Shown one piece after another: positions 2,596 to 52,714 of a DNA stretch of 64,000 bases. Every line of letters starts with the position of its first letter. Position 1 is the stretch's first letter. A model generated the notes under the pieces. It did no database searches, was not told the DNA's origin, and was given only the letters and a program-made list of their open reading frames with translations. The stretch comes from Sulfurovum indicum. Lineage in GTDB: Bacteria; Campylobacterota; Campylobacteria; Campylobacterales; Sulfurovaceae. Made by a program: the position numbers and the translations under genes. Location of the stretch: assembly GCF_014931715.1 (NCBI RefSeq), contig NZ_CP063164.1, positions 248,001 through 312,000 of the forward strand, read 5' to 3'.

Positions 2596-2632
2596 CCTAT
2601 AGTCTGCCCTTTGGGCGGGTAGACTACAGGCT
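2596..2632 (-). terminator. Hairpin at the end of murD
   Basis: A long imperfect hairpin (GCCTnTAGTCT ... GCCC-AAA-GGGC ... AGACTAnAGGC) begins within the last codons of murD and includes its stop codon. There is no strong T-tract right after it, so it may act as an RNA-stabilising or weak terminating structure rather than a classical terminator. Confidence 0.45.
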
Positions 2633-3883
2633 CTTTACAAGCTTTACAAATCTCTCTCCCCGGTGTTTGTATGATGTAAACTGGTCAAAACTGGCTGCTG
2701 CCGGGGAGAGGAGGGCAATGCTCTTTTGGGTATGTATTGTATCGATCAATTTGACAGCATGTTCAAGGGTAACTGCCTCTTTCAGATCGATATTGAATTT
2801 TTTTGAAAGCTTTTTCACCTTTTGGCTGTTTGCTCCGATGCTATATAATGTAAGGTCTATATGTGCCAAAAGGCTGAAAAGCGGTGTAAGGTCTACCCCT
2901 TTGTCATCTCCTCCGAGAATAAGGTGAATATGGTTGTCACTGTAAGTCTTTACTGCCTGTATGGTTGCATCAAGGTTGGTTGCTTTGGAGTCATTGACCC
3001 AGAGTCTACCCTTTCTGTCTGTGAGCTCTTCCTGTCTGTGGGCATCCCGTTGAAAAGTGTTGAGCAGATCGTAGTCTGTTTCGTCAAAAAGTACCTTGGT
3101 AATGGAAAGAGAGAGCAGGGCATCTTGTAAAAAGGCCCCTTTGTAGTTGAGGTTGGCTGCATTCAGACCAAAGTAGTCACAGAGAAAGTTGTTGCTGTCA
3201 TACTCGACCACATAGGCATCAGTCCTGGGAAGGTTCATCCCTTTGGGGATCAGTGCCAGCTCTCCCTCTTTCATATTCAGCAGCGGTTTGAGCTTATCGG
3301 CTTCATAGGCTTGAGGGGTACTGTGCCAGTCCAGATGGTCAGGGGTGACAGGCAGAAGCAGATAGATGTCCGGTGAGGCGATTTTGGTATGATGCAGGGT
3401 AAAAGAGCTTGTCTCCAACACCCAGACAGGTGCTTTTTCATCAAGCTCTGCCAGTGGTGTACCGATGTTCCCACCGCTTACGGCACCGCGTTTTTTCAAA
3501 AGGTGGGTAAGCATCTGGGTCGTGGTGGTTTTGCCGTTGGTACCTGATATCCAAATCGTAAAAGGCGTTTTCCTTTTAAATGAGGAAGTAGGAAGTAGGA
3601 AGTAGGAATTGTGGTTTGCGTTATTTTCACCGCCTAAAAAGTAGTCATATTCACTTAGTAGATGTTTTGCTTTTTGAATAAGCGGGTGTTTTGGGGGCAA
3701 GCTGGGTGTAGTGACTTCCAATCGACTTTCATCGGGGTTGAACAGAGATGAAGGCTTGATGATATTGTTGTATTCATCAGTATAAGTTTCTTTACAGTTG
3801 TCGTCGAAAAAGGTACAGCCCCCACCCAGTTTTTTTGCTATGGCTTTGGTGGTAAGACCGTAGCCGAAAAGGGTTGGCTTCAT
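2624..3883 (-). CDS. murD: UDP-N-acetylmuramoylalanine--D-glutamate ligase
   Basis: Cytoplasmic Mur ligase adding D-Glu to UDP-MurNAc-L-Ala in peptidoglycan precursor synthesis. Seen: the ATP-binding P-loop GTNGKTTTTQ (about residues 114-123), an ETSSF motif, the HLDWH segment and the C-terminal domain with NDSKATN and LGGDDKG. Length (419 aa) is slightly below the usual ~440. Residues about 84-108 are an extra low-complexity stretch encoded by three perfect copies of the heptamer GGAAGTA (plus strand, 3584-3604) with flanking hairpin sequence, placed just before the P-loop domain and kept in frame. The start is preceded by AAAGGA lying in the loop of a perfect hairpin (3884-3906). It follows mraY in direction, as in other Campylobacterota, but is separated from it by a repeat cassette. 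Confidence 0.9.
   Translation of the reverse strand: MKPTLFGYGLTTKAIAKKLGGGCTFFDDNCKETYTDEYNNIIKPSSLFNPDESRLEVTTPSLPPKHPLIQKAKHLLSEYDYFLGGENNANHNSYFLLPTSSFKRKTPFTIWISGTNGKTTTTQMLTHLLKKRGAVSGGNIGTPLAELDEKAPVWVLETSSFTLHHTKIASPDIYLLLPVTPDHLDWHSTPQAYEADKLKPLLNMKEGELALIPKGMNLPRTDAYVVEYDSNNFLCDYFGLNAANLNYKGAFLQDALLSLSITKVLFDETDYDLLNTFQRDAHRQEELTDRKGRLWVNDSKATNLDATIQAVKTYSDNHIHLILGGDDKGVDLTPLFSLLAHIDLTLYSIGANSQKVKKLSKKFNIDLKEAVTLEHAVKLIDTIHTQKSIALLSPAAASFDQFTSYKHRGERFVKLVKSL
3556..3636. repeat. Heptamer-repeat/hairpin element inside murD
   Basis: Three perfect tandem copies of GGAAGTA (3584-3590, 3591-3597, 3598-3604) are flanked by AAAAGG...CCTTTT (3560-3577) and by GCG...CGC sequences. The arrangement resembles the intergenic heptamer elements found elsewhere in the window. 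It lies within the murD reading frame and adds roughly 25 residues without breaking it. Confidence 0.65.
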
Positions 3884-3963
3884 GAAAAATTCCTTTGGAA
3901 TTTTTCAAGTGAAGAGTGAAGAGTGAAGAGTGAAGAGTGTTGGTATGTTTTGCAGAGCAAAAC
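3884..3963. repeat. Heptamer-repeat/hairpin element, murD-side arm
   Basis: From left to right: perfect hairpin GAAAAATTCC-TTT-GGAATTTTTC (3884-3906), about four tandem GTGAAGA heptamers (3908-3939), TTGGTATG, and hairpin GTTTTGC-AGA-GCAAAAC (3947-3963). It is one arm of a cassette whose other arm (4348-4420) has the same parts in the opposite order and carries the four-helix-bundle gene between them. On the minus strand the loop of the first hairpin holds AAAGGA, the ribosome site of murD. Confidence 0.75.
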
Positions 3964-3970
3964 TTCTGCT

Positions 3971-4327
3971 TTATTTTTCATGATTGTTCTCTTTAGCTGT
4001 TTTAATACTGGATGCTAACATTCTAATAAGATTTTCTATATCATCCAATAGGCTTATTGCCAATTTTTCCTGAAGATAACTACAATCTTTTAGAAGGCTT
4101 AACCAATATTTTGTCTCATTCGCTTCTTTTAATGCAATAGAAAGTTTATTGATGAAATCTGATTTTGATTGGGCATATTTTCCTTCAGCAATCAAAGCTC
4201 CAATGGCGGTACCTGAACGTAAAACTTGTTTACTTAGGATAAACTCTTTTTTTTCTTGTTGTAAATATTCACTACACTTCACAATACGAATGGAAAAAGC
4301 ATAACTTTTCTCTTCTAAAATACTCAT
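3971..4327 (-). CDS. Four-helix-bundle protein (23S rRNA IVS / Avd-like family)
   Basis: 118 residues with four predicted amphipathic helices and the family signature segments FILSKQVLRSGTAIGALIAEG, SDFINKLSIALKEANETKYWL and a C-terminal helix ending in a charged tail. This matches the small four-helix-bundle family first found in 23S rRNA intervening sequences; the family also includes Avd, the accessory protein of diversity-generating retroelements. No reverse transcriptase or variable repeat is present here. The gene is enclosed by two inverted heptamer-repeat arms (3884-3963 and 4348-4420) and interrupts the mraY-murD pair, which suggests it travels with that repeat. Molecular function is unknown; nucleic-acid binding is inferred from the family. 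Confidence 0.8.
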   Translation of the reverse strand: MSILEEKSYAFSIRIVKCSEYLQQEKKEFILSKQVLRSGTAIGALIAEGKYAQSKSDFINKLSIALKEANETKYWLSLLKDCSYLQEKLAISLLDDIENLIRMLASSIKTAKENNHEK

Positions 4328-4347
4328 TTACTTCTCATCCAATAAAG

Positions 4348-4420
4348 GCTTTTTGTAAGAAAAGCTTACCATAACTCTTCACTCTTAGTTCTTAGTTCTT
4401 CACTTCAAAGCTTTGCTTTG
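4348..4420. repeat. Heptamer-repeat/hairpin element, mraY-side arm
   Basis: Read on the minus strand: hairpin CAAAGC-AAA-GCTTTG (4420-4406), heptamers of the GAAGTGAAGAACTAAG type, TTATGGTA, then hairpin GCTTTT...AAAAGC (4365-4348). The first hairpin ends next to the mraY stop codon at 4422. Orientation is opposite to the arm at 3884-3963, so the four-helix-bundle gene has inverted repeat ends. Confidence 0.75.
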
Positions 4421-4421
4421 A

Positions 4422-8447: not shown

Positions 8448-8578
8448 TTTTGCATTTGCAAAATTGCAAATTAGGAGTGAGGAATGAGGAGTGAAGTGTT
8501 GAGGTATGCATTGCTGTGCAATGCTTGTATTGTCGATTACTCATTACTCATTAGTCATTCTTCTTTTGTCGGAGACAA
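8448..8578. repeat. Heptamer-repeat/hairpin element (fabG to response regulator)
   Basis: Hairpin TTTTGCA-TT-TGCAAAA (8448-8463), GGAGTGA-type heptamers, GAGGTATG, hairpin GCATTGC-TGT-GCAATGC (8508-8524), then heptamers in the opposite orientation (ACTCATT-type, 8538-8560) and a terminal hairpin TTGTC-GGA-GACAA (8566-8578). The last loop carries the GGAGA ribosome site of the next gene. It looks like an internally deleted version of the four-helix-bundle cassette. Confidence 0.7.
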
Positions 8579-34120: not shown

Positions 34121-34171
34121 ACAGTGAGGAGTGAAGAGTGAAGAGTGAAAGTATGCATTGCTCTGCAATGC
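34121..34171. repeat. Heptamer-repeat/hairpin element (permease to ATPase)
   Basis: GGAGTGA/AGAGTGA heptamers directly after the permease stop, then GTATG and the hairpin GCATTGC-TCT-GCAATGC (34155-34171). The hairpin differs only in its loop from the copies at 8508 and 44925. Confidence 0.7.
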
Positions 34172-44248: not shown

Positions 44249-44890
44249 ATGTTAGTAGCACCAAGTATACTTTCGGCAGACTTTGGTTATTTGGCTGATG
44301 ATGTGAAGGCCATTTGTGAAGGGGGATGTGACCTTGTACATGTAGATGTGATGGACGGACACTTCGTTCCCAATCTGACGATCGGTCCGGTAGTAGTGGA
44401 AGCGATAGCAAAAGCGGCGACCAAACCGCTTGATATTCACCTGATGGTTGAGAATAACAGTTTCTTTGTTGATCTTTTTGCTCCGTTGAAACCGGAGTTT
44501 ATCTCTTTTCATATTGAAGAGGAGAAGCATCCTCACAGATTGATTCAGAAGATCCGCTCTTTGGATATCAGACCGGCGATCGTGCTGAATCCCCATACGC
44601 CGCCTGAAAAGATAGAGTTCCTGCTTGAATATGTTGATATGGTACTGCTCATGTCGGTTAACCCGGGTTTTGGCGGACAGAAGTTCATCCCCTCGGTCAT
44701 TGAAAAGGCACAGCGACTCAAAGCGCTTATTGAAAAACGCAACCCTGATTGTCTTATCGAAGTGGATGGCGGAGTGAATGATACAAATGTCAAAGTGCTT
44801 GCTGATGCCGGTGTGGATGTGGTTGTTGCCGGGTCATTTGTCTATAAACACCCTAAAGGGGTGGGAGAGGCGATCGCCTCTTTGAAGTGA
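44249..44890 (+). CDS. rpe: Ribulose-phosphate 3-epimerase
   Basis: 213 aa TIM barrel. Motifs: APSILSADFG, LVHVDVMDGHFVPNLTIGP, DIHLMVEN, MSVNPGFGGQKFIPS, EVDGGVND. Interconverts ribulose-5-P and xylulose-5-P. Its last codons contain the palindrome GAGGCGATCGCCTC, the first hairpin of a heptamer-repeat element that continues into the spacer. Confidence 0.96.
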   Translation: MLVAPSILSADFGYLADDVKAICEGGCDLVHVDVMDGHFVPNLTIGPVVVEAIAKAATKPLDIHLMVENNSFFVDLFAPLKPEFISFHIEEEKHPHRLIQKIRSLDIRPAIVLNPHTPPEKIEFLLEYVDMVLLMSVNPGFGGQKFIPSVIEKAQRLKALIEKRNPDCLIEVDGGVNDTNVKVLADAGVDVVVAGSFVYKHPKGVGEAIASLK

Positions 44891-45037
44891 AGAGAGAAGA
44901 GTGAATAGTGAATAGTGTCGGTATGCATTGCTGTGCAATGCTTTTATTGAAAGGAGAAGAGAATATGAAATATATCAAAATAGAAGTTTTTCGAAAGAAA
45001 AACAAACTAAAACTATTCACTTCTCCCAAAAGGGAGA
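44866..45037. repeat. Heptamer-repeat/hairpin element between rpe and trpF
   Basis: Parts in order: palindrome AGAGGCGATCGCCTCT (44866-44881, inside rpe), heptamers GTGAATA/GAGAAGA (44888-44916), TCGGTATG, hairpin GCATTGC-TGT-GCAATGC (44925-44941), a 44-nt middle, hairpin GTTTTTC-GAAA-GAAAAAC (44986-45003), reversed heptamers (ACTATTCACTTC), and terminal hairpin TCTCCC-AAAA-GGGAGA (45022-45037), whose right arm is the ribosome site of trpF. Confidence 0.7.
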
Positions 45038-52621: not shown

Positions 52622-52714
52622 TGAAATGAAAAATTAGCAATTAAAAATTAAAAAAAGGGGCAGGGGACTTTTGATTTTTCCTTTTTAATTTTTAATTTCA
52701 ATATCCGAAGGATA
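52622..52714. repeat. Heptamer-repeat/hairpin element between the Zap-like genes
   Basis: AAAAATT/AGCAATT heptamers (52629-52656), a GGGGCAGGGG middle, heptamers in reverse (TTTTTAATTTTTAATTT), and a terminal hairpin TATCC-GAA-GGATA (52702-52714) with AAGGA, the ribosome site of the next gene, in loop and right arm. Confidence 0.65.

Follow-up and report, generated by a model that had tools for sequence, protein, structure and literature searches.

The murD gene of Sulfurovum indicum carries, immediately ahead of the P-loop, a perfect run of tandem heptamers that is read in frame within the ORF. How does such a repeat come to lie inside an essential ligase gene? We analysed a 64,000-nt stretch of this genome, referred to here as the window. 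The run has period 7 over 26 nt (3583-3608, word GGAAGTA), with three complete units at 3584-3604, and the expected count of GGAAGTAGGAAGTA in shuffled sequence was 0.00. The three in-frame GGAAGTA units that a preliminary description of this DNA had reported before the P-loop are therefore real and beyond chance, and the ORF is intact. Only one MurD match was found in the 2.21-Mb single-contig genome. The murD locus consists of the following parts.

2624..3883, minus strand: murD, single copy, 419 aa (Pfam Mur_ligase_M and Mur_ligase_C; the model matches solved MurD structures)
3554..3640, minus strand: variable linker between MurD domains, residues 82-110 (here 29 aa, vs 9 aa in 40/87 relatives)
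3559..3578, no strand: palindrome A of the murD insert, hairpin TAAAAGGCGTTTTCCTTTTA, flanking the array on one side
3583..3608, plus strand: in-frame heptamer array (AGGAAGT)3.7 (period-7 run, shuffles)
3609..3633, no strand: palindrome B of the murD insert, a decayed remnant (relatives keep the intact form GCATCGCAAAGCGATGC)

Flanking hairpin sequences had been described for the array. One is present at 3559-3578, and the outer arm of this palindrome A is native murD sequence (Pro-Phe-Thr codons); on the other side only the decayed remnant at 3609-3633 was found. Covariation of palindrome A with the host codons was weak, its own pairing being 6.3 vs 5.7 with the native sequence of other alleles. 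The insert has no S23p gene and has lost its second array, and its own RNA fold was ordinary (z = -0.4). The earlier figure of about 25 extra residues was too high: the linker is longer by about 20 residues (29 vs 9), and the array itself encodes about nine. Residues 86-104 had a pLDDT <50 in the structure model, the remainder of which matches solved MurD structures. The insert peptide is probably without function in MurD.

MurD proteins from 87 relatives, one genome per species, were compared. A 9-residue linker between SEYDY and WISGTNGKTTT was present in 40 of the 87, and in other families of the order a short linker is the usual form. The remaining linkers were 11-49 residues long. Many of the long ones were encoded by heptamer arrays with varied words (TTCACTC, CTCCTAC, AGGGAGC, AGGGAAA, AACGCTC), often arranged, in many species, as array, hairpin GCATCGCAAAGCGATGC and inverted array. 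About four units of a different word were found at the same linker in L185, a genome of another family. On a MurD tree built without the linker, heptamer inserts required at least 12 changes on the best tree, and 7-8 changes between short and long linkers were forced by well-supported branches alone. Recombination of murD alleles could explain part of these changes. It had been suggested that an element of this type can enter coding sequence, with an alignment of MurD from close relatives proposed as a check. The alignment agreed: 40/87 MurDs lack the segment, many others have it in a different form, and the composite was also found in frame in murG.

In other Sulfurovum species (L016, L047, L052, L032, L013 and L017), the murD linker is encoded in frame by GTAG-type palindromes (REP/BIME). 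As these palindromes sit at the same linker, it receives several unrelated kinds of element, and part of its variety being of this other kind argues that the site is simply permissive.

Of the 2.21 Mb of the genome, 464 kb were read (the window and a 400-kb sample of stretches). Period 7 gave 24 long runs, vs 0-5 for any other period. Over 1.2 Mb including relatives there were 97 arrays of period 7, vs 0-5 for each other period from 4 to 15. The arrays behave as heptamer repeats, that is, tandem 7-nt units which are dispersed and mainly intergenic; in a set that over-represents murD loci, 63 were intergenic and 51 coding. On the purine strand the composite has the order palindrome A, 4-5 heptamers, TTGGTAT, palindrome B GCATTGCnnnGCAATGC and TTTTATT. 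Palindrome A is variable in sequence and abuts the array; an arm of at least 7 was found in 26/92 vs 32/1,500 controls. A GGTAT tag lay within 16 nt of the array in 17/92 vs 16/1,500 controls. The distance from palindrome A to GTAT was 33-35 nt, which equals five heptamers, in 9 of 19 measurable copies; this is suggestive only of a fixed 35-nt spacing. The same anatomy of array, tag and hairpin was common to the murD linker alleles and the intergenic copies, and a search of Rfam gave no match. Solo composites in the window are given below.

8473..8559, plus strand: array, GGTAT, palindrome B and inverted array, without an S23p gene
34123..34171, plus strand: array, GTAT and palindrome B
44886..44942, plus strand: array, GGTAT and palindrome B

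At 52624-52698 of the window, an AATTAAA array and a TTTTAAT array lie about 30 nt from each other as an inverted pair, also without an S23p gene. The tagged hairpins followed the leading strand in 15/17 cases, with the orientation switching at the terminus near 1.1 Mb (two-sided binomial ~0.002). The glycyl-tRNA synthetase beta gene also contains an array (660951), but the residues that it encodes look native in comparison with other GlyS proteins, and it was set aside as probably due to chance.

An intact unit with an S23p gene is located at 3883-4421, between mraY and murD and 300 bp from the murD insert. The full unit consists of palindrome A, about five heptamers, the tag with palindrome B, the S23p gene, palindrome B again, an array of a closely similar word inverted, and palindrome A.

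3883..3907, no strand: palindrome A, murD end of the unit
3908..3939, plus strand: heptamer array (AGTGAAG)4.6, murD end
3942..3963, plus strand: GGTAT tag and palindrome B
3971..4327, minus strand: S23p / 23S_rRNA_IVP gene encoding a four-helix bundle of 118 aa, at the core of the intact unit (PF05635, E 3.5e-27)
4348..4365, minus strand: palindrome B, mraY end
4374..4403, minus strand: inverted heptamer array (GTGAAGA and AAGAACT type), mraY end
4405..4421, no strand: palindrome A, mraY end, abutting the end of mraY

The RNA fold of this unit gave z = -5.5. The gap between mraY and murD was 3-265 nt at the 82 loci without S23p and 336-544 nt at the 8 loci with S23p, as expected for an insertion between the two genes. 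Several intermediate gaps hold arrays only.

Arrays within 300 bp were counted for 57 distinct S23p ORFs, with 547 ORFs of this genome as control. They were found on both sides of 31/57 S23p genes but of 0/547 control ORFs, and on at least one side of 46/57 vs 54/547. When only the loci from the PF05635 family search were used (n=49), 25 were two-sided, and a detectable array was absent at 10/49. The two arrays of one unit share a word in inverted orientation. Their words differed by 1.37 mismatches of 7, vs 3.09 when permuted, and 0/5,000 permutations were as low; the same-strand comparison gave 3.56 mismatches of 7. Predicted RNA pairing was 18.0 bp between a unit's own arrays vs 6.7 with the array of another unit, and own-array pairing of at least 10 bp was predicted in 31/37 two-sided units. 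S23p units and solo derivatives co-occur in the same genomes.

Among 37 genomes of the same genus, the number of copies of one common word followed the number of S23p genes (rho = 0.86). S23p was present in 16/16 genomes with arrays and absent in 16/21 without them. Heptamer inserts in murD were found in 13/14 genomes with arrays vs 3/15 without (p ~1e-4). Five of six phylogenetically independent pairs agreed for murD insert and array content, which is not significant with only six pairs. In another family, the genome G039 contains five S23p genes as well as 64 copies of the reversed AGTGAAG word that served as a control; this genome seems to have a heptamer vocabulary of its own.

S23p genes on plasmids from five other phyla (Treponema, Bernardetia, Monoglobus, Chlorohelix and several cyanobacteria) were associated with heptamer arrays in the same way. 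Arrays were near the gene at 13/13 of these loci and on both sides at 10/13, for example GTCGGAA / ACTTCCG and GTAATTC / AATTACG. On three of these plasmids, two-sided flanking was found for 0/70 other genes, while two of their three S23p genes were two-sided and one was one-sided. The plasmid units L292, L295, L296, L297 and L299 lie between or beside functionally linked genes (cas2/cas1, beside cas1, hsdS/hsdR, helicase/methylase).

The murD gene is not the only coding sequence of this genome with such an insert. The murG gene (L136:12298-13482, minus strand; genome 1882298-1883482) contains the same hairpin-plus-heptamer composite in frame (EVSQSDTSQNSSPFTLHSSL). The insert was absent in about 24 of 29 MurG loci, and a few others had different heptamer words there. 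The N-terminus MKSLLLPTSYFLL of a tilS-like gene (L121:16226-17233, minus strand) is encoded in frame by GGAAGTA units. An S23p unit adjoins this gene (genome 245266-245565); one of its arrays is the tilS-like N-terminus and the other runs as far as the C-terminal end of a radical-SAM (UPF0004/TRAM) gene. A Y1 transposase gene at L142 (genome ~1239671) has GTAG-tagged palindromes on both sides (REPtron). The terminal repeats are of a different kind at 1118494 and 1121466, where two Y1 genes identical to each other are located.

Unit number was compared between murD alleles with matched flanks, which had 1 vs 4 units (L058/L041 and L030/L010) or 2 vs 5 (L028/L011). Changes of three heptamers, which had been noted as frame-preserving, thus do occur. 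Counted from the tail, the right array of murD had 1, 2, 4 or 5 units and never 3, in agreement with the argument from the reading frame. The further suggestion that copy number is under selection was not supported in that form. The intergenic arrays (n=63) had 3 units in 8 cases, 4 in 33, 5 in 19 and 6 in 3, so that 52/63 had 4-5 units; as they have the same size, array size belongs to the element and not to the reading frame, and we reject the idea that arrays have four units because copy number is selected. There is a clear sign that selection in murD acts on the array staying readable in translation: where the coding-strand word contains TGA, the would-be in-frame TGA codon reads TTA, TTG or ATA in 5/5 murD alleles. 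Coding arrays with a stop in the purine word were read mainly on the pyrimidine strand (17 vs 4). A function of the words as stops in all frames was considered and rejected. A stop is present on the purine strand of 28/38 words, yet purine-richness with one T yields that, and the array at 3908 of the window is oriented wrongly for its operon.

Several explanations of the murD insert were weighed. We consider it probable that the segment is an in-frame, solo derivative, lacking S23p, of a selfish element resembling the intervening sequences (IVS) of 23S rRNA. Since the insert is without S23p, has lost its second array and has a decayed hairpin B, its descent from a unit is argued from the alleles of relatives. 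A plain microsatellite, in which native linker codons were expanded through polymerase slippage with no mobile element, would agree with the single AACGCTC unit of L058 vs four in L041 between identical flanks, and slippage has been proposed for the heptamers over-represented in many bacteria (PMC4692102). We regard it as unlikely, because array size peaks sharply at 4-5 rather than decaying, only period 7 is involved, GGTAT-tagged hairpins accompany the arrays at the frequency given above, and S23p genes are flanked by mirrored arrays of the same word. Mobilisation by a RAYT, as for REP/BIME elements of the GTAG kind, is somewhat less probable again. The genome has four Y1 transposase genes, the corresponding murD linker of some other species (L016, L047, L052, L032) holds GTAG palindromes, and the tagged hairpins keep to one replication strand. 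However, the tag is GTAT and not GTAG, REPs as described contain no heptamer arrays, and the composites flank 0/4 Y1 genes; mobilisation by RAYT was rejected as the composites show no link to these genes.

The insert might instead be adaptive for MurD, as a loop for regulation or interaction, or act as a switch in phase variation; in favour of this, it is in frame in an essential single-copy gene and recurs at the same position in many species. It is nevertheless absent in close relatives, differs everywhere in sequence and length and is predicted to be disordered, and phase switching is implausible as a change of one unit would destroy an essential gene. We give this explanation very little weight. 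Least probable of all is an artefact of assembly or annotation: repeats are prone to mis-assembly, but the genome is a single contig, the ORF is intact and analogous inserts are present in dozens of independent assemblies.

The proposed derivation from an S23p element invites comparison with known systems. The IVS in the 23S rRNA of Coxiella burnetii has an S23p ORF, GACAGAT heptamers upstream of it in a copy number that varies among strains, and a terminal stem of 28 bp that RNase III cuts; IVS are also named for Leptospira and Brucella, and no function is known for the S23p family (PMC4990558). The unit at 3883-4421 likewise contains an S23p (PF05635) ORF, which is absent from the murD insert, with tandem heptamers directly upstream of the ORF as in Coxiella burnetii. 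Pairing of terminal inverted repeats is predicted for the units (31/37), but not for the decayed murD copy. IVS lie at helix 9, 25 or 45 of 23S rRNA, whereas the units here are located between or inside protein-coding genes, in this locus between mraY and murD and inside murD, where the copy is without S23p. There are also many units per genome, each with a private heptamer word, together with palindromes A and B. By analogy, the unit appears to resemble an IVS in its working, and it is not classed as one.

Heptamers of Xanthomonas and Nostoc (GGGAATC / GGGGA(C/T)T) show a four-unit preference, with sites kept and words changed, and this preference was attributed to G-quadruplexes; the over-representation of heptamers in many bacteria was left unexplained (PMC4692102). 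TAACTGA arrays in Beggiatoaceae enter ORFs in a stop-free orientation (PMC4679880). The arrays described here resemble these and the cyanobacterial STRR in having period 7, in being dispersed and mainly intergenic, and in occupying the same sites with different words in related genomes; as with TAACTGA, coding copies are read on the strand that is free of stops. They differ in being linked to S23p, a link not reported in the two papers. The G-quadruplex explanation is weakened, since the preference for about four units is also found in words such as AGTGAAG that cannot form G-quadruplexes. Intragenic palindromes (Rickettsia RPEs, REPs) are known to lie in frame within functional genes, where linkers or loops probably tolerate them (PMC3733652), and the murD insert is likewise an in-frame palindromic insert in a protein gene. 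RPEs and intragenic REPs have no heptamer arrays and no S23p and have GTAG or CGTC tags. The tag at the hairpin foot is here GTAT, mostly GGTAT, and not the GTAG of the REP/RAYT system; a RAYT gene is there flanked by the same repeat, whereas the flanks of the four Y1 genes here carry other repeats. Searches of the open-access literature gave no paper that connects S23p genes in general with mirrored arrays of heptamers.

With somewhat less confidence than for the murD insert, we favour a wider reading, in which S23p genes are the core of widespread small selfish elements with mirrored, unit-private heptamer ends. These elements and their S23p-less derivatives would be the source of much of the bacterial heptamer excess, and the 23S rRNA IVS would be a special case that landed in rRNA. 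The two arrays are predicted to pair into an RNA stem of 20-30 bp, akin to the RNase III-processed stem of the IVS. Units and solo copies would insert at many sites, possibly with S23p aiding copying or integration, and the matching end words may arise by copying one end from the other through snap-back or template-switch synthesis. Most coding insertions would be lost. The exposed inter-domain linker of MurD may tolerate an insertion whose length is divisible by three and whose strand, as read, contains no stops.

Two puzzles may thus be one, namely the unexplained excess of heptamers in bacteria (PMC4692102) and the S23p family, so far without a function (PMC4990558). If S23p units do end in mirrored arrays, one would expect S23p to act on these arrays or on the RNA stem that they form, and heptamer loci to mark where insertions once took place. 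MurD and MurG, as single-copy genes, offer natural series of insertions in frame, in which the element is present or absent.
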